Source: an uncultured Chlorobiota bacterium
Lineage (GTDB): Bacteria > Bacteroidota > Bacteroidia > Bacteroidales > JAADGE01
Direction: 5' to 3'
Length of the DNA stretch: 33,677 nt
NCBI GenBank assembly: GCA_947311265.1
Contig: CAMZKQ010000022.1
Span: 1 to 33,677 of the forward strand
This document shows positions 6,987 through 29,800 of this stretch, one piece after another. A program made the translations under genes and the position numbers. Position 1 is the stretch's first letter; each line of letters begins with the position of its first letter. The notes below the pieces were generated by a model, which was given only the letters and a program-made list of their open reading frames with translations, searched no databases and was not told the origin of the DNA.

Positions 6987-7925
6987 ATGTCAAAAGTAAC
7001 CGTAATAGGTGCCGGAAACGTAGGCGCTACCGCTGCTAACGTTATTGCACAAAAAAACATAGTAAAAGAAGTTGTCCTTTTGGATATAAAGGAAGGCCTT
7101 GCAGAAGGCAAAGCACTAGACATGTGGCAAACTGCACCAATTCGTAAGTTTAGCACAAAAATTACTGGCGTAACTAACGATTATGCAGCAACTGCTGGCT
7201 CGGAAGTTATTGTAATAACATCTGGCTTACCCAGAAAACCGGGCATGTCGCGCGATGACCTTATCGAAACCAATGCTAAAATCGTAAAAATTGTAACCGA
7301 AAATGCAATAAAGCACTCCCCAGATGCCATCATTATCATCGTATCCAACCCGCTTGATGTTATGACTTATGCCGCTTTTAAAACCGCAGGCACCTCCTCT
7401 AAAAAAGTATTCGGTATGGCTGGGATTTTAGATACCGCTAGATACCGTGCATTTTTAGCTACTGAATTAGGCATTTCGCCAAGGGATATACAAGCCCTAC
7501 TTATGGGTGGGCATGGCGATACCATGGTGCCACTTCCACGCTACACTACCGTTGGCGGAATACCTGTTACCGAGTTAGTGTCCAAAGACAAATTAGATGC
7601 CATTGTAAAACGTACAAAAATGGGTGGTGGCGAATTAGTAAAACTAATGGGTACATCAGCTTGGTACGCTCCGGGTTCTGCTGCCGCAGAAATGGTGGAA
7701 GCCATTGTTTGCGACGAAAAGCGTGTACTCCCAGTATGTGCATACCTTGATGGCGAATTTGGTCTAAAAAACATCTTCCTTGGTGTGCCAGTTATTATGG
7801 GAAAAGGCGGTATCGAAAAAATCATTGAAATTGATATGAATGAAGAAGAGAAAAAAGACATGAATAGTTCCGCAGCTGCCGTAAAAGGCGTTATGGATGT
7901 GCTTGATAATATGAACATTATATAA
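6987..7925 (+). CDS. mdh: Malate dehydrogenase
   Basis: 312 aa. MSKVTVIGAGNVGATAAN Rossmann start, ITSGLPRKPGMSRDDLIETNAKIV, VSNPLDVMTYAAFKTAG, MGGHGDTMVPLPRYTTV. Confidence 0.97.
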   Translation: MSKVTVIGAGNVGATAANVIAQKNIVKEVVLLDIKEGLAEGKALDMWQTAPIRKFSTKITGVTNDYAATAGSEVIVITSGLPRKPGMSRDDLIETNAKIVKIVTENAIKHSPDAIIIIVSNPLDVMTYAAFKTAGTSSKKVFGMAGILDTARYRAFLATELGISPRDIQALLMGGHGDTMVPLPRYTTVGGIPVTELVSKDKLDAIVKRTKMGGGELVKLMGTSAWYAPGSAAAEMVEAIVCDEKRVLPVCAYLDGEFGLKNIFLGVPVIMGKGGIEKIIEIDMNEEEKKDMNSSAAAVKGVMDVLDNMNII

Positions 7926-8109: not shown

Positions 8110-11100
8110 TTATTTTTGTGCATTAAATTTTAATGTAAAGGGTATTTTTCGCTTTTCAGCCGTGCCGCCTTCGGGGGTGTAGTAGCCAACGGGCGATACA
8201 CTTATTACTTCTTTTTTTATGGCTAATGTTTTTGTGTTGATGTACCATTTCTCGGTAAAAATTAATGATTTCACTTCCTGCGGAATTAAGTAATCGTGCT
8301 GCTCTGAGCCTTGTGGGTAGCCACTGAACTCGTCGGCAATATAGGTTCTGGTGATACAATTTTTCTTTATTTGCACTGTATCTATTGGGTTGCCTGTGGA
8401 GTAATCGTAGCATTTTGCTTTGCCCGAAAATGCCCTTGTAAATAGTTGCTCGCTAAATTTTTTAGTATGGGCTTCGTTCCAAAAAAGGGGGTCAAAATCT
8501 TCGATATGTGGTGTATTCATATTTCGGTCTTCGTCGTAGGTGGTGTAGCCTATTTCGTAACTAATTGTTTTTAGATATTTCATTTTCGATTTATCTTGCT
8601 TTTTGGGTTGGATAATATAGCCTACTAGTTTGTATTTCCTGCTCTGCAAATCATCTTCGTTATCGTAGCTAATAAATGGGGAGTAGGCAAAAACATCTTT
8701 TTGTAGGGAGAATTTATTTTCGTCGAACGCCCAATTTTCATAACACTTAACACCCTCTATTTTAGGGTGGCTATAGTTCATCTTTCGTTCTTGGCTTGGT
8801 AGGGCACTGTAGTTTAAGGGCGAAAAAGCGGAATGGCTTTCAAAATCGTCCATTTGGAAGAGGGGTAAATTAGATGTATTGTGTGCGTTGTTATATAAAT
8901 TTTCAAAAGAAATATTACTTTCTCCTTCTACTTTAAACTCAAATTCTGGGAAATAGGAAGGTGAGTTTTTTGTTTTTTGTAGTGTTGTATTAAAAGGGGT
9001 TATTATTTCGGTCTGTGCGTAGCTTTTTTCATCTTTTTTATTAAGAAAAACAGTAAATAGAATTTTCTTTTTTATGGACTCGTCACTGTACGGTTCAACA
9101 TAATAGCGTACTGGCGATAGGGCAACTACCTCCTTATGAATCCGCATGGTATTTTTATCGATATACCAGTTTTCGTGGAAAATTACGGCTTGTATTTCGG
9201 CAATATTGTAGGGGTTTAGTGCTGTATGTTCAATAATATTACCTTGGTCATCGAATTCAAATTCGTCATCATAATATCCAATTATTTCGGCACTTTCGCC
9301 GAGTCGCTTGCGGGCTTCTTTTGTTGAAATTGCTTGCCCTGTTGTAAAATCATAGGCTTTTTTCTTGCCGGTAAGTACTGCATCGACTATCATTTTTTTG
9401 AATCGTTTTTGCGTTTGGTCTGTCCAAAGTGGTGCATTTCTTTGTTCGCCCGAAAGTGTTGCTTTTTCATTGTTTAACTGAAATTCGTATTTTATTTTTT
9501 TGAAGAGTTGCATTTTTTTCAGGGCTTTTTTCTTTGCCCTTTTGTTTTTGTAATCGTCGGATACAATTGTAAATGCTGGTGTTATAAAATGTGTAGCTTC
9601 GTCAAACATATCTTCTATACGCACTGGCGAATAGGCTTTTACTGTTTTTTGCATTGTAAATTTATATTCATCAAAATTCCATTTTTCCCAAAACTTAATG
9701 GCTTGTATTTCATTTTTATCTACCGAGAAGTTTTCTATTTGCACCAGCTCTTCAAAAGTATCTGGGTCGTATAGCGTGGTTTTATGCAGGTCTCCACCAA
9801 GGTTGTGTTCGGCGGTTTTAAAAGTTATTTTTTTTTGTTTTCGATGCTTGGGCAAGTAAGGTTTGTAGTTTGGGCTGTAAAGTAGTCCTCCTTTTTTGCT
9901 ATTCATTTTTTTTACAATTAACTTTTGAATATCAATATCATTAAGGCTTTGCGAGCTGTAGTATTTTGCCTTTCCTGCTGTTGGAGTATAACTATAGTAA
10001 TCTTCTTTACTGAACTTACTGTTCCAAATAAAATCATTGATAATGATTTCTGTGTTTAGCTTTGCGGTTTGCTTTGCATGTTTTTTTATTTTTTTTTCTT
10101 GAAGTTTTGAAATATAGTTTATAATTTCTGTATTTCCTCCTATAACTGCACTGTGCAAAGGGTTTTCTCCATTTTCATCTTCTGCAAATAGGTCTGCTTT
10201 TTTTTCGATTAGTAATTTTACGGCATCAAATGCCTTTGGGTTTTCTGCCACTATGTGTAGTGGCGTTTTGTCTTCGTAGCTTACATTACTAATGTCAGTT
10301 GTATTTACTAATATATTATTGAGCATAGTATAGGAGGATTTTTGCTTTGCTATGGCTATTAGCATTTCGCCATCTTTTTTTTCATTGCCTATTGGGCTTA
10401 GTTGTAATCCTTTTTTAAGGTAAAAATCTAAGGCTTTAAAGTTGTTGTTGGCCAAGGCCATATCTGCCAAATTTTTGTTGTCCTCATTAGTGTAGTTAAT
10501 ATCTGCCCCAGCAGATAGTAAAATTTCTAGAATTTTAATTTTTTGCTTTGTAATTGTAGCTATAGCAATAGGCGTATAATTATTGTTATTTTTGATATTT
10601 ACAGTTTGTGGCGAAAGCAGCAATTCACAACGTTCTGCTGAGATGGGCTTATGTAGGGCATAAAGCAAAGGCGTTTCGCCATTGCTATCCTTGCTGTGTA
10701 GGTCTGCCCCATTGGCAATTAGCTGTTCTAAAATTGCATTGCCCCCAGAGACTGAGGCAGAAGCATGGAGCAAGCTTTTTTTATCTTTTTTAGTTTCAAC
10801 TTTATAGTTTTGCGGATACTCCATTAGTAATTTTGCAATATCAAATGCTTGTGTTTTTATGGCTTTGTAAAGTGGTGTTTCGCCTTTGTTATTGGCTTCT
10901 GTTACCGAAACGCCAGCCTGAAGAATTAACTTTACATTGTTGGTGTTGGCACTGTATCTACTAATGGCATAGAAAAGAGCAGTTTCTCCGAGTTTATTTT
11001 TTGCATTTTTATTTTTGACTAAGCTAAGTAGTGCTGCTAATGATTTATCAGATTTATAGCTAATGGCATAATGCAGGCAGCTATTTTTTCCTAGCCCTTT

Positions 11101-12246
11101 GTTTAATACCGCTCCTTTACTTGCCAAAAAGGTAATGATTTCTGCCGGGGAATTGTTCTCGATGGCATACATCATGGGGGTTACTTTATCTGAAGAAAAT
11201 TGGTTTATATCTGCTCCTTTTTCTATAAGGTAGTTTATGATTTTAGGGTTTAATTTCTTTTTTATGTTGTAATAATTCCAGCCACAGGCACTATGGATTG
11301 GGTATATTCCATAAGGGTTTGTGGCATTTACTTTTGCCCCGCTTTCGACCATTAATTTTACTAGCTCCAACTTGCCAGACTCAATGGCCACGTTCAAAGG
11401 GCGAGATAAATCTATGCCCGTGTCCTTACTTCGTTTTCGGAGTAATTTAGCTAACCTAGGGTTATTATTTTCAAGGCTAACGTCCAAGGCACGCAGGTAG
11501 CTGGTATTAATATCTGCCCCAGAGTTGAGCAGAAATTCGGTAAATTTATACGCCCCCTTGTGGCGAGATGATGTATAATAAATTAGTGTAAATCCCTGTT
11601 TATCAGGCTTATTTATGTCTTTAAGATTGTTTTTTACTGCCTTCTTAAAATCTTCAAAATTACCAAATTCGGCTAAAAACTGGGGCGTATAAACTTTGTC
11701 TTTGAAGATACTTGCAATGGCTTTATTGCCATCAGCAATTTGCTTTTCGTATGGGGTTTGTCCCTTATTATTTTTAATTTTAAAATCTGCATTTCTGTAG
11801 GCAAGCAACATCGCTAATTTTCCTGCATACCGCCCATTTAGCAAGTGTGCGGCTGTGTTTCCGTTGTTATCTGCGAGGTTAATATCCGTACCTGCCGAGA
11901 TTAAATAGTCGGCAATAAATTCTTTGGAATAGTGGTAATAGGGGTCTTCAATAACTCTGTGTAAGGCTACTTTTCCATTGCCCGATTTTTTATTTGGATT
12001 AGCCTTATTATTGATAAGAAGTTTTATAATGTCGGTATTTCGGGCATGCTCGGTGGCTACATATAATAATGTTTCGCCATTTTTATTCAAAATATTAGCA
12101 GGTACACCACTTTCTATAATTTGCTGGGCAATATATAGCTGCGAATGCCTTACCGCCTCAAAAAGGCTGTCTTCTTTTTCAGGATTTTGCCCATTTGCCA
12201 AAAAAAAGAACAAAATTAAGTTAATCGTTAAAAGTATATTTTTCAT
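8110..12246 (-). CDS. Secreted ankyrin-repeat protein with C-terminal array of GldN/PorN-like motifs
   Basis: Track ORF 8110-12282; likely start is the internal Met at 12246 (signal peptide MKNILLTINLILFFFLANGQ). About 19 ankyrin-like units counted by eye (e.g. NGETPLLYALHKPISAERCELLL). C-terminal half has four EkWxxDxxxxxxxKxVxaxSPV motifs. Confidence 0.88.
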   Translation of the reverse strand: MKNILLTINLILFFFLANGQNPEKEDSLFEAVRHSQLYIAQQIIESGVPANILNKNGETLLYVATEHARNTDIIKLLINNKANPNKKSGNGKVALHRVIEDPYYHYSKEFIADYLISAGTDINLADNNGNTAAHLLNGRYAGKLAMLLAYRNADFKIKNNKGQTPYEKQIADGNKAIASIFKDKVYTPQFLAEFGNFEDFKKAVKNNLKDINKPDKQGFTLIYYTSSRHKGAYKFTEFLLNSGADINTSYLRALDVSLENNNPRLAKLLRKRSKDTGIDLSRPLNVAIESGKLELVKLMVESGAKVNATNPYGIYPIHSACGWNYYNIKKKLNPKIINYLIEKGADINQFSSDKVTPMMYAIENNSPAEIITFLASKGAVLNKGLGKNSCLHYAISYKSDKSLAALLSLVKNKNAKNKLGETALFYAISRYSANTNNVKLILQAGVSVTEANNKGETPLYKAIKTQAFDIAKLLMEYPQNYKVETKKDKKSLLHASASVSGGNAILEQLIANGADLHSKDSNGETPLLYALHKPISAERCELLLSPQTVNIKNNNNYTPIAIATITKQKIKILEILLSAGADINYTNEDNKNLADMALANNNFKALDFYLKKGLQLSPIGNEKKDGEMLIAIAKQKSSYTMLNNILVNTTDISNVSYEDKTPLHIVAENPKAFDAVKLLIEKKADLFAEDENGENPLHSAVIGGNTEIINYISKLQEKKIKKHAKQTAKLNTEIIINDFIWNSKFSKEDYYSYTPTAGKAKYYSSQSLNDIDIQKLIVKKMNSKKGGLLYSPNYKPYLPKHRKQKKITFKTAEHNLGGDLHKTTLYDPDTFEELVQIENFSVDKNEIQAIKFWEKWNFDEYKFTMQKTVKAYSPVRIEDMFDEATHFITPAFTIVSDDYKNKRAKKKALKKMQLFKKIKYEFQLNNEKATLSGEQRNAPLWTDQTQKRFKKMIVDAVLTGKKKAYDFTTGQAISTKEARKRLGESAEIIGYYDDEFEFDDQGNIIEHTALNPYNIAEIQAVIFHENWYIDKNTMRIHKEVVALSPVRYYVEPYSDESIKKKILFTVFLNKKDEKSYAQTEIITPFNTTLQKTKNSPSYFPEFEFKVEGESNISFENLYNNAHNTSNLPLFQMDDFESHSAFSPLNYSALPSQERKMNYSHPKIEGVKCYENWAFDENKFSLQKDVFAYSPFISYDNEDDLQSRKYKLVGYIIQPKKQDKSKMKYLKTISYEIGYTTYDEDRNMNTPHIEDFDPLFWNEAHTKKFSEQLFTRAFSGKAKCYDYSTGNPIDTVQIKKNCITRTYIADEFSGYPQGSEQHDYLIPQEVKSLIFTEKWYINTKTLAIKKEVISVSPVGYYTPEGGTAEKRKIPFTLKFNAQK
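8113..10085 (-). other. GldN/PorN-like repeat region within the ankyrin protein (approximate bounds)
   Basis: FWEKWNFDEYKFTMQKTVKAYSPVRI (~9616-9692), FHENWYIDKNTMRIHKEVVALSPVRYY (~9102-9180), CYENWAFDENKFSLQKDVFAYSPFI (~8671-8746), FTEKWYINTKTLAIKKEVISVSPVGYY (~8179-8259). Confidence 0.6.
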
Positions 12247-12472
12247 AGTCAAGTTTATCTTCAAATGCAATCTGTTTTCCATAATCCTTATAACACTGGT
12301 AATAAGAATATTACAAATCTTTTTAAATTTTCATTTAGGGGCTTATGTATTAAATCAAAAACCACGCCTTAAAGTTGCCATGTTAATAACTTTTTAAAAT
12401 TTCTTTTCGTAAAATAGGCTAAACTTTAATAAATTTAAAGTTCTCTTTTTTTAAATTTTTATTTCCGAAAAA

Positions 12473-12480: not shown

Positions 12481-12612
12481 TATTGGCATAATTAACAGTT
12501 TGTAAAACTTTGTTTACTGCATGCTTGTTTTTTTTCGATTATTCATTTCTTTTTTCTAAAAAATATTTAGTTTATGTTAAAATATTTTTACTTTTACACA
12601 AAAGATAGCTCT

Positions 12613-14415
12613 ATGAAAAAAATTCAACTCACTTTATTAATCCTATTTTTAGGTATTTTTACAGCCTCGGCACAGCCGGGTTATATAAAAGCTCTTGAAA
12701 AATCTATAGAAACTGCAAACAATACCGAAAAGCTAGTTATTTTAGAAAAACTATCTGAATTTTATTTGGATTATGATATTACTATTGCCATAAAATATGC
12801 CGGTGTTGGGCTAAAAATATCAAAGAAAGAAAAAGCAGACGACAAAGTACAAGCTAGTTTTTACAATAAATTAGGGGCGGCTTACTATTACAACGGAAAA
12901 TATCGAAAATCATTAAGGTATTACGAAAAAGAATTATTTTTAATTCAGAAGGACGGCAAACCTAAGGAAACAATAAAGGCACTTTATAATATAGCCGTTT
13001 TGTATCAAAAATCTAAAAAATATAGAAAAGCAGCTAAGTACTTTGAACTCAGCTACGAAAAAGCACAAGAATTAAAGTCGAAAGACCTAATTATGCACAA
13101 CCTAAAAGCCCTCTATGAAGTGTACGAACAGTGGGGTAAAGATGGGAAATCTTTAAAATACCTACAAGCCTATATCGCCTTAAAAGACAAACAGTTTAAA
13201 AAAACAGAAACTAATGTAAGCATTCTTCGTAAAAAGTACAAAAAAGAAAAAGCACTTAGGCAAACTACTGAAAACCTATTAGATGTTACTGAAAGCAAGT
13301 TAAACGTATCTGAAAATGATAAAAAAGAACTGACCGAAGACACCTTAAGAAAAGCCAACAAAATAGAGCTACTTGCCCTAGAAAAGAAAATGGCAGAGAA
13401 ATTAGATGCACAAGAAGAGGCTATAAATAGTGCAAACGTAATGCTGCACAAAGCCCAATCGGACAGGAAAGCAATACAATTTTCGCTTTTAGGATTAGTT
13501 ACTTTTTTAGTACTGGCTGCTGGGGTTTGGTTATTTTACCTGTATCGCCAAAAGCGAAAAGCGAATGATATTTTGCTAATTCAAAAAGAGGAAATTGAAG
13601 AAAAAACAGTAGAACTTACTGCGGTAAATGTAGAGCTGGAAGAGAAAAACACACAAATTATTGATAGCATAAATTATGCTAGGCGTATCCAAGATTCTAT
13701 TCTGATTCCAGAAGATCAAATTAAACAGCATTTGCCCGAAACATTTATTTATTACCAACCAAAAGATATTGTAAGTGGGGATTTTTATTGGTTCTCCGAA
13801 GTGAACGGTAAATTTATATTAGCCGCAATAGATTGTACTGGGCATGGCGTTCCTGGGGCATTTATGTCCATGATTGGGAATACGCTTTTAAACGAAATTG
13901 TAAACGAAAAAAACATAACAAAGCCCGATGAAATCTTAGCCCATTTGCACGAAGGGGTAATGGTATCCTTGCAACAAAATACAGGTCGGTTTGAAGCCGA
14001 AGACGGCATGGATATGTCCTTATGCACGATTGATCCTAAGCTAAAACGCTTTCAGTTTGCAGGGGCAAAAAACCACCTTTACGTTATCCAAGGCGAACGC
14101 CTAAAGGTACTGAAAGCCAACCACCACTCCATTGGTGGTCGCCCTTTGCGGGACGACATTGAAGTTTCCTTTACTTCCTACGATTTTATGTATGACGATA
14201 ACACCTCAATTTACATGATGTCTGATGGCTATATGGATCAATTTGGCGGTTTGCAGGACACCAAATTTAACTCCAAACGCTTCAAGCAAATGTTACTCGA
14301 TAATTGCAAACTGCCTATGGCAGAACAAAAAGATATAATTAAAAAGCAGCTCAACGACTGGAAAGGCGATAAAGCTCAAATTGATGATATTTTAGTTTTG
14401 GGGGTCAAGCTCTAA
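12613..14415 (+). CDS. TPR-containing SpoIIE/PP2C-type serine phosphatase (RsbU-like), membrane anchored
   Basis: Track ORF starts 12574; the in-frame ATG at 12613 gives signal peptide MKKIQLTLLILFLGIFTASAQ. TPR units, TM helix FSLLGLVTFLVLAAGVWLFYLY, and SpoIIE motifs SGDFYW, AAIDCTGHGVPGAFMSMIG, YMMSDGYMDQFGG, DDILVLGVKL. Confidence 0.92.
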   Translation: MKKIQLTLLILFLGIFTASAQPGYIKALEKSIETANNTEKLVILEKLSEFYLDYDITIAIKYAGVGLKISKKEKADDKVQASFYNKLGAAYYYNGKYRKSLRYYEKELFLIQKDGKPKETIKALYNIAVLYQKSKKYRKAAKYFELSYEKAQELKSKDLIMHNLKALYEVYEQWGKDGKSLKYLQAYIALKDKQFKKTETNVSILRKKYKKEKALRQTTENLLDVTESKLNVSENDKKELTEDTLRKANKIELLALEKKMAEKLDAQEEAINSANVMLHKAQSDRKAIQFSLLGLVTFLVLAAGVWLFYLYRQKRKANDILLIQKEEIEEKTVELTAVNVELEEKNTQIIDSINYARRIQDSILIPEDQIKQHLPETFIYYQPKDIVSGDFYWFSEVNGKFILAAIDCTGHGVPGAFMSMIGNTLLNEIVNEKNITKPDEILAHLHEGVMVSLQQNTGRFEAEDGMDMSLCTIDPKLKRFQFAGAKNHLYVIQGERLKVLKANHHSIGGRPLRDDIEVSFTSYDFMYDDNTSIYMMSDGYMDQFGGLQDTKFNSKRFKQMLLDNCKLPMAEQKDIIKKQLNDWKGDKAQIDDILVLGVKL

Positions 14416-27829: not shown

Positions 27830-29800
27830 ATGAAGAAATTTACTAAAATTGCCTGTATTGTAATCATTACAATAATTACAACACAATCTGCATTTGCACA
27901 AAAAAACGTAGGGATAAACACCCTAACACCCAACCCCAACGCAGTACTAGAACTCGTTGCCCCAGATGGCAACCAAGGCCTACTACTCCCCCGCCTAAGC
28001 ACCACACAGCGAAACGCCCCCAGTTTCCTAACTGCACTTGGCACAGCCGAAAACGGACTAATAGTATATGACACCACAGAACGAGCATTATACTGGTGGG
28101 ACGGCACAAGCTGGAAAACATTTACAGGAGCAGGTGCAGCATATACCGCAGGGATAGGCATACAAATTTTAGCCGGCGAAATTATAAACAGCTCCCCCGA
28201 CCAAGAAATTACACTGCAAGGCACAGGGGCAACAACCGTAACAGGCACATACCCCAACTTTACAATAACCACCACCGACAACACCGACGATGCCGATGCA
28301 GACCCCACTAACGAAATACAAACCTTTTCCTTTACAGGAAACGAATTTTTATTATCAGGCAGTGCAAATACAGCACTACTTTCCTCCACAACACCTGCTG
28401 ACGGACAGGTACTTGTTTGGAGTACAGACCATTGGGAAGCACAAGCTTTGGCAGGAATCGATAACCAAAACCTAGAACTTTTAGCAGACAATACATTATC
28501 CATAGAAGGTGGCAACTCGGTCGATTTATCTCCTTATTTAGATAATACCGATGCTCAGGATTTAAGTTTAGCAGGTAATATTTTAAGTTTAACCAATGAT
28601 GGTACAACAGTTGATTTGTCTAGTTTTGCTAATACTGATGCACAGGATTTATCTTGGAACGGCAATAAAATACAAATTTCAAATGGCGGTGATATAAACC
28701 TCTCCGCAACTCCCCCTGCAACTGGGGAAGTTTTAACATGGGATAATACAAATAGTCGTTGGGACGCAAGTGCCATACCTGCCCCAAGTTTAACCAATGC
28801 CAATATTTTCGTTGGAAATGCAGGCGGTACTGCCACAGGCGTACCCATGACTGGCGATGCAACCATAGACAATGCAGGTGCTTTAACCATAGCCAACAAT
28901 GCAGTAACCACCCCAAAAATATTAGACGGTGCAGTAACCACCGCAAAGATTGCCAACAATGCCATAACCACCGCTAAAATATTAGACGGTACAATTGCCA
29001 CAGTTGATATTGCCAACAATGCCGTAGATGGCACAAAAATAGACCTTTCAGGAAATACAGATGGAAATATTATGTACTACAGTGGCACAGGCTGGGTGCG
29101 TTTAGCAACAGGAGCAAATGATGAAGTTCTAAAATTAGCTGGCGGTGTGCCAACTTGGGCTACAGACAATGGCGACACCTACTCCGCAGGTAATGGCATA
29201 GCCATTGATGGTTCAAATGTAATTTCTAGTACCATTTGGAACATTAGTGGTGGCGATATAACCCTAGTCGCTCCTGCTAATAATATCGCCATTGGCGGTG
29301 CCGTTGATGCTAATTATAAACTAAAAGTTTACGGACGTTTTCAGTCCGCAGGGGTAAATGAACTCTCTGATGAGCGATGGAAACAAAATATTAAAACCCT
29401 TGAAGGAAGTAGCCTTAGTAAAGTAAAACAACTCCGTGGGGTAAACTACGACTGGCGAATTAGCGAGAACCCCGAAAGAAATTTCCCGAAAGGGAAACAG
29501 TTCGGTTTTATTGCCCAAGAGGTAGAAAAAGTATTCCCACTTGCCGTGGATACCGATAGCGAAGGCTACAAATCAGTACAATACAGCCACATGACTGCAC
29601 TACTGGTAGAGGCCATGAAGGAGCAACAAACCATAATTGAAAATCAGCAAAAACAAATTGATAATTTAAAAGCTGAACTTGCCACAAACACTACAAACAC
29701 TAACCAAACCAAGAGTATTAAAGCACAGTTAGAAAAAATGCAACAGCAAATTAAAAATATGCAAGCCCTACTAGATGCCTCTAACACCGCAGGTAAATAA
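27830..29800 (+). CDS. Tail-fiber-like secreted protein with C-terminal Peptidase_S74 (intramolecular chaperone) domain
   Basis: 656 aa. Signal peptide ...TTQSAFAQKNVGINTLTPNPNAVLELVAPDGNQGLLLPRLSTTQR; repeats NNAVTTPKILDGAVTTAKIANNAITTAKILDG; C-term ELSDERWKQNIKTLEGSSLSKVKQLRGVNYDWR...KQFGFIAQEVEKVFPLAV then coiled coil. Confidence 0.88.
   Translation: MKKFTKIACIVIITIITTQSAFAQKNVGINTLTPNPNAVLELVAPDGNQGLLLPRLSTTQRNAPSFLTALGTAENGLIVYDTTERALYWWDGTSWKTFTGAGAAYTAGIGIQILAGEIINSSPDQEITLQGTGATTVTGTYPNFTITTTDNTDDADADPTNEIQTFSFTGNEFLLSGSANTALLSSTTPADGQVLVWSTDHWEAQALAGIDNQNLELLADNTLSIEGGNSVDLSPYLDNTDAQDLSLAGNILSLTNDGTTVDLSSFANTDAQDLSWNGNKIQISNGGDINLSATPPATGEVLTWDNTNSRWDASAIPAPSLTNANIFVGNAGGTATGVPMTGDATIDNAGALTIANNAVTTPKILDGAVTTAKIANNAITTAKILDGTIATVDIANNAVDGTKIDLSGNTDGNIMYYSGTGWVRLATGANDEVLKLAGGVPTWATDNGDTYSAGNGIAIDGSNVISSTIWNISGGDITLVAPANNIAIGGAVDANYKLKVYGRFQSAGVNELSDERWKQNIKTLEGSSLSKVKQLRGVNYDWRISENPERNFPKGKQFGFIAQEVEKVFPLAVDTDSEGYKSVQYSHMTALLVEAMKEQQTIIENQQKQIDNLKAELATNTTNTNQTKSIKAQLEKMQQQIKNMQALLDASNTAGK

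Follow-up and report, generated by a model that had tools for sequence, protein, structure and literature searches.

The window analysed here is the whole 33,677-nucleotide contig CAMZKQ010000022.1 of an uncultured Chlorobiota bacterium (assembly GCA_947311265.1; Bacteroidales in the GTDB lineage), and it encodes on its minus strand, at 8110-12246, an exported protein, here called Ank-GldN4, in which a long ankyrin-repeat arm is followed by four copies of the core of GldN. That this architecture and the GldN fold of its C-terminal part are real is close to certain. GldN (PorN) has been described solely as a ring or track subunit with a single core, belonging to the type IX secretion system (T9SS) and gliding machine; as judged from sequence, the modules of Ank-GldN4 retain the GldN core and have lost the ring-building surfaces, and the protein is very probably not a member of the GldKN ring. 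The best explanation, offered tentatively, is an exported soluble periplasmic scaffold made from T9SS parts, whose GldN pairs would hold domains of the GldM D4 type.

The C-terminal region (residues 735-1390, 656 aa) consists of four GldN-core modules arranged as two A-B pairs, all on the minus strand: M1 (A type, residues 742-917, positions 9532-10059), M2 (B type, residues 925-1082, 9037-9510), M3 (A type and the most degenerate, residues 1090-1227, 8602-9015) and M4 (B type, residues 1235-1390, 8113-8580). Aligned by hhalign to a reference of 21 canonical GldN proteins from relatives, M1 to M4 give probabilities of 98.8, 98.5, 94.9 and 91.1 respectively, all four matching the GldN core at about canonical positions 64-202 of 280; the control values are 0.06-0.30 for reversed modules and 0.28 for the ankyrin region. 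The Pfam family GldN (PF19841) is matched at 51.8 bits (E 1.1e-13, two stretches), above its gathering cut-off of 23 bits, with M2 as the best match (residues 946-1080), and a GldN profile scores 50.9 bits on the real sequence, whereas none of 500 shuffled versions exceeds 6.8 bits. The multiple GldN-like modules of the original prediction, which was made from the sequence alone, are thus borne out, and the GldN-family profile search by which it might have failed gave a match. The motif that it gave for GldN, DPETYEE..FFDKQRSV..IIGIAPV, is found in the canonical GldN of the relatives.

The paired arrangement follows from comparison of the modules with one another. By hhalign M2 and M4 are closest (99.9), and M1 lies slightly nearer to M3 (98.7) than to M2 (98.4) or M4 (97.3). 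In a tree of 56 modules, from which M3 was left out as too short and in which row WIN_3 is M4, the second and fourth array modules form one group and the first and third modules (M1 among them) another; therefore an A-B pair was duplicated. Canonical GldN forms a separate clade in this tree (support 98/89), the deep branches being weakly supported.

Direct search of PDB sequences with the array profile gave no match, and the link to PorN therefore rests on Pfam, the canonical intermediates and the predicted fold. An AlphaFold model of residues 735-1084 (seven rows) has a mean predicted local distance difference test score (pLDDT) of 59.7 and a predicted template modelling score of 0.63, the M2 core being the best-modelled part at up to about 90. 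Foldseek comparison of this first-pair model with the PDB returns five PorN chains at probability 1.00 (7pvh twice, 9mzu, 9ots and 9myj), the match next in order having 0.04 and none of the others among the fifty listed exceeding 0.07; the unrelated fold that would have spoken against the original prediction did not appear, the module pair matching PorN structures only. The model of the full 656-residue array (mean pLDDT 48.7) has the same PorN chains as its top five matches and is too poor for reading module packing. Template modelling scores and root-mean-square deviations to PorN are poor, so the model shows fold, not packing.

Comparison with the ring-type protein shows what has been kept and what has gone. 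PorN binds PorK through an N-terminal helix together with the N44-W47 loop, the F156-D162 turn, and the C-terminal helix and tail, and PorM D4 has been cross-linked to PorN at A241 (PMC12421860). Each of the four window modules retains the core residues that in PorN are numbered E152, W154 and P172. The GldK-contact loop F156-D162 (FDKQRS in relatives) is replaced by FDEYKF, IDKNTM, FDENKF and INTKTL. The modules hold no counterpart of the GldK-binding N-terminal arm and W47 loop, the conserved READVMWSK stretch before about residue 57 being missing; they end near PorN residue 195 and so are without the C-terminal helix, region 9 and the A241 cross-link site. At the same place the T9SS GldN equivalog model TIGR03523 scores 31.5 bits, below its cut-off of 85.9. 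No gldK-gldL-gldM genes adjoin the Ank-GldN4 gene in the window, and none were seen in the relatives' loci. Identity as a ring subunit was rejected as unlikely, given the lack of the GldK-binding elements and of the PorM cross-link site and a score short of the equivalog cut-off; of the "ring-associated scaffold or decoy" first proposed, the scaffold is what is left.

The ankyrin-repeat solenoid (residues about 36-730, 10093-12177, minus strand), delimited by Pfam Ank_2, Ank_4 and Ank together with a unit scan, exceeds the Pfam cut-offs for ankyrin-repeat membership; Ank_2 alone is matched at 221 bits (E 1.8e-66, 9 stretches), and ankyrin covers most of residues 40-725. The earlier estimate of about 19 units fits the length of about 695 aa; a rapid scan with a self-trained profile picks out 13 units or part-units between residues 66 and 725. 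Type IV secretion system (T4SS) ankyrin effector names from NCBIfam were considered and rejected, the match being through the repeats only and far below the cut-offs. Automated annotation would probably name Ank-GldN4 merely an ankyrin-repeat protein.

The open frame extends from 8110 to 12282, and its first ATG gives 1390 aa; the ATG at 12246, implied by the original prediction and giving 1378 aa, is the better start because the protein then begins with a Sec signal peptide, MKNILLTINLILFFFLANGQ (12187-12246, minus strand, without a lipobox by inspection), and the orthologs likewise start with signal peptides. The signal peptide, ankyrin arm and C-terminal region of about 650 residues originally described are all present. 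An NCBIfam scan (E up to 1) gave no T9SS C-terminal domain (CTD) family match, and the C-terminus is module M4.

The same arrangement of Sec signal, ankyrin repeats and four GldN modules recurs, as a search suggested by the original prediction revealed, in at least three other genomes from two Bacteroidales families: G006 (loci L048/L067, 1324 aa), G009 (L049, 1386 aa) and, in another family, G278 (L071, where the fetched stretch cuts both ends). A partly masked near-copy of the G006 gene lies in another metagenome-assembled genome (MAG; L066), and G003 has the final part of an array at a contig end. An assembly chimera was rejected because the fusion recurs in independent genomes. GldN-like pairs without ankyrin are found in G014, G030, G147 and G278, pairs with a long C-terminal region in G186 (no Pfam match, TPR-like by eye), and single or paired GldN-like lipoproteins in many families. 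At 1e-8 the array profile matches 123 of 393 genomes of the order, a count that includes canonical GldN; in the draw from the phylum only two of the 395 other genomes match, weakly (open frames of 304 and 374 aa), and no array was found. On these counts expansion of the GldN module is, at this sensitivity, a Bacteroidales trait.

Several loci show the variety of these proteins. One (L062:2-2710, G005:C54) encodes a protein in which TPR and leucine-rich repeats come after two GldN modules close to the canonical form. GldN-like lipoproteins, mostly single-module and about 190 aa long, adjoin M16-type peptidase genes, by inspection, in several Bacteroidales families (L098, L090, L063, L020), and genes for dual-module lipoproteins (L076, L079, L081, L083; L077, L084, L088) adjoin, by inspection, dprA-like genes in one family and UspA-like genes in others.

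A clue to what the GldN pairs bind comes from G409 (L105:8589-10346, G409:C265), which encodes an exported 586-residue fusion of GldM_4th (36.8 bits, cut-off 24.6) to an A-B GldN pair (59.5 bits), both over the Pfam cut-offs, with a degenerate second GldM_4th copy by eye. Its GldM part has stand-alone relatives of 309-318 aa in G164, G273 and G282, and counterparts of its other half are the stand-alone GldN pairs of G278, G147 and G030; halves fused in one genome and separate elsewhere are a classical fusion clue, here to a partnership of GldN with GldM D4. GldM D4 is a known neighbour of GldN, and PMC12635249 predicts that the tip of PorM D4 occupies the cleft formed by two adjacent PorN copies. 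Free D3-D4 or D4 proteins are encoded in the window's genome (G000) as well as in G005, G009 (a D3-D4 protein at L107:4286-5311), G014 and G017. It is thus plausible, at somewhat less than even chances, that GldN pairs bind GldM D4-type domains. Canonical GldM itself is over the cut-off in 72 of 80 genomes overall, including nearly all carriers tested and equally often non-carriers, and such near universality gives its presence no power on T9SS dependence. Bacteroidales commonly encode GldM paralogs that match in the N-terminal half alone or in the C-terminal domains alone (e.g. G034:C56, G110:C103, G187:C117, G085:C62; G264:C147, G126:C495), so that duplication seems to have affected parts of GldM in addition to GldN.

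A second candidate partner is a family of exported proteins of about 245 aa present in 39 of 393 Bacteroidales genomes (genes L049:17801-18529 and L113:11416-12177; copies in the window's genome at G000:C263:3789-4430 and G000:C173:7634-8263). Its gene lies directly downstream of the G009 array with a 16 bp gap, and directly downstream of the G186 gene pair with about 105 bp to the first ATG; the two proteins are 41% identical. Among the 21 genomes of the home family it occurs only in G000, G003, G006 and G009, exactly the array carriers (Fisher p = 1.7e-4). When family f63 is included, all 7 carriers of ankyrin-, long-arm- or D4-type arrays (counting G003 with its fragment) have it, as against 1 of 21 others (p = 6.8e-6); these p values ignore shared ancestry, and the four home-family carriers belong to four genera. 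The motifs FPE..RYS, DFSIG.FQMKPSFAE and AYN.GF recall goose-type lysozymes and lytic transglycosylases, a Glu is invariant (E75 in the G009 protein), and the protein is possibly lysozyme-like; Pfam, NCBIfam and PDB gave no significant match. A frequent neighbour of this family is a conserved lipoprotein of about 480 aa with the motif IPPDIWVD..G..V.G.I.IKYREF (L157:10456-11904, L156:10520-11971, L155:2279-3706, L151:5286-6764, L159:7436-8917), two members of which had no Pfam match when scanned; in G147 a protein resembling it is encoded ahead of the dual GldN gene (L185).

The favoured scheme would run as follows. The signal peptide would export soluble Ank-GldN4 to the periplasm, where it would serve as a scaffold and take no part in construction of the GldKN ring or track. 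The GldN pairs, lying side by side, would imitate the cleft between adjacent GldN copies and so hold D4-type domains, whether those at the tip of GldM or those of the free D4 proteins encoded in the same genomes, and the ankyrin arm would bind a further client. In some lineages, more speculatively, the client or co-worker could be the co-encoded lysozyme- or lytic-transglycosylase-like protein, and the complex might then tie parts derived from the T9SS to the local opening or remodelling of peptidoglycan; such a cell-wall role with the partner is doubtful. More doubtful still is the wider idea that some Bacteroidales have a second envelope assembly, separate from the T9SS ring, of tandem A-B GldN modules on ankyrin or other long arms, GldM D4 domains, fused or free, and a new lysozyme-like enzyme. 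A number of observations weigh against this scheme. Both AlphaFold models are of low confidence, the D4-GldN fusion is a single case, the PorM-PorN D4 contact is only moderately supported with weak model confidence (PMC12635249), and the PorM cross-link site A241 falls in the part missing from the modules. The lysozyme-like reading comes from motifs and non-significant matches (goose lysozyme E 0.78, SLT E 0.14), the window's genome carries its partner copies unlinked to the array, and in the order as a whole the usual neighbour of the partner is another lipoprotein, not GldN modules.

Other explanations account for parts of the evidence. The GldN core could be a sturdy beta-sheet domain duplicated for adhesion or docking in a general periplasmic protein-protein scaffold unrelated to type IX secretion, as would be consistent with the grouping of non-canonical modules apart from the canonical clade, with the stand-alone lipoproteins in many Bacteroidales families next to unrelated M16 peptidase, DprA and UspA genes, and with the lack of a gldKLM neighbour in the non-canonical loci read; the GldM_4th-GldN fusion of G409 argues against it, and it is considered rather unlikely. 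Insertion into, or capping of, the GldK-GldN ring or gliding track, changing ring size or stalling movement, is a possibility to which four consecutive cores lend themselves, since they could span several N-layer positions, and SprA is complete in the window's genome while the relatives also have canonical gldN. However, none of the four modules has the PorK interfaces of PorN (PMC12421860) intact, the N-terminal arm, C-terminal helix and FDKQRS loop being missing or changed, and TIGR03523 stays below its cut-off, which makes a ring component or decoy improbable. Least credible, and very improbable indeed, is a role for exported Ank-GldN4 as an ankyrin effector, either toxin-like or host-directed. 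Such effectors are known and the T4SS Ank models of NCBIfam do touch the repeats, but the protein has a Sec signal peptide and no CTD or enzymatic domain was found in it, its conserved C-terminal modules are structural, and two of the three named relatives are sulfidic-cave MAGs.

If the scaffold made from T9SS parts is correct in its wider form, a second assembly derived from duplicated T9SS parts would have its own cell-wall or export task. The GldN core is in any case a widespread Bacteroidales module, found as one, two or four copies with ankyrin, TPR or GldM-D4 arms, and loss of the ring-forming surfaces sets what the core does apart from assembly of the ring. From the natural fusion with GldM D4 comes a testable prediction of the binding partner of the GldN core, the GldN-GldM D4 contact being only modelled or cross-linked in the 2025 PorKN structure papers. 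In the literature searched, the phrase "GldN domain" was not found, and the titles and abstracts of the 17 papers in which GldN and ankyrin are both mentioned contained no description of an ankyrin-GldN fusion.

Both neighbours of the Ank-GldN4 gene, a malate dehydrogenase-like gene (mdh, 6987-7925) and a TPR/SpoIIE-type gene (12574-14415), each assigned by inspection, lie on the opposite (plus) strand, and the gene therefore looks monocistronic. The window is one entire contig of a 2.57 Mb genome in 275 contigs that is 71% complete. Elsewhere in it (27830-29800) is an exported protein whose C-terminus, by inspection, resembles the peptidase S74 intramolecular chaperone of phage tail fibres.

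Among known proteins, Pseudomonas AnkB is a periplasmic bacterial ankyrin protein that shares exported ankyrin repeats with Ank-GldN4 and is without GldN modules. GldO, the GldN paralog of F. johnsoniae, shows that GldN paralogs exist; unlike Ank-GldN4 it is a single full-length near-copy of GldN. Dual-module GldN-like exported proteins (e.g. L005, L007, L072, L184) have the same A-B pair in the tree, but one pair only and no ankyrin arm, as is also the case for dual-module lipoproteins such as L009 and L011, whereas the G409 fusion has the A-B pair in common and GldM D4-like domains in place of the ankyrin arm. With GldN/PorN of the T9SS GldKN (PorKN) ring or track (TIGR03523, PF19841; 7PVH, 9MYJ, 9MZU, 9OTS) Ank-GldN4 shares core fold and residues, Pfam family and Sec export; it differs in having four cores per chain rather than one, together with an ankyrin arm, in having neither the GldK arms, the contact loop nor the cross-link site, and in lying outside gldKLMN and below the equivalog cut-off.

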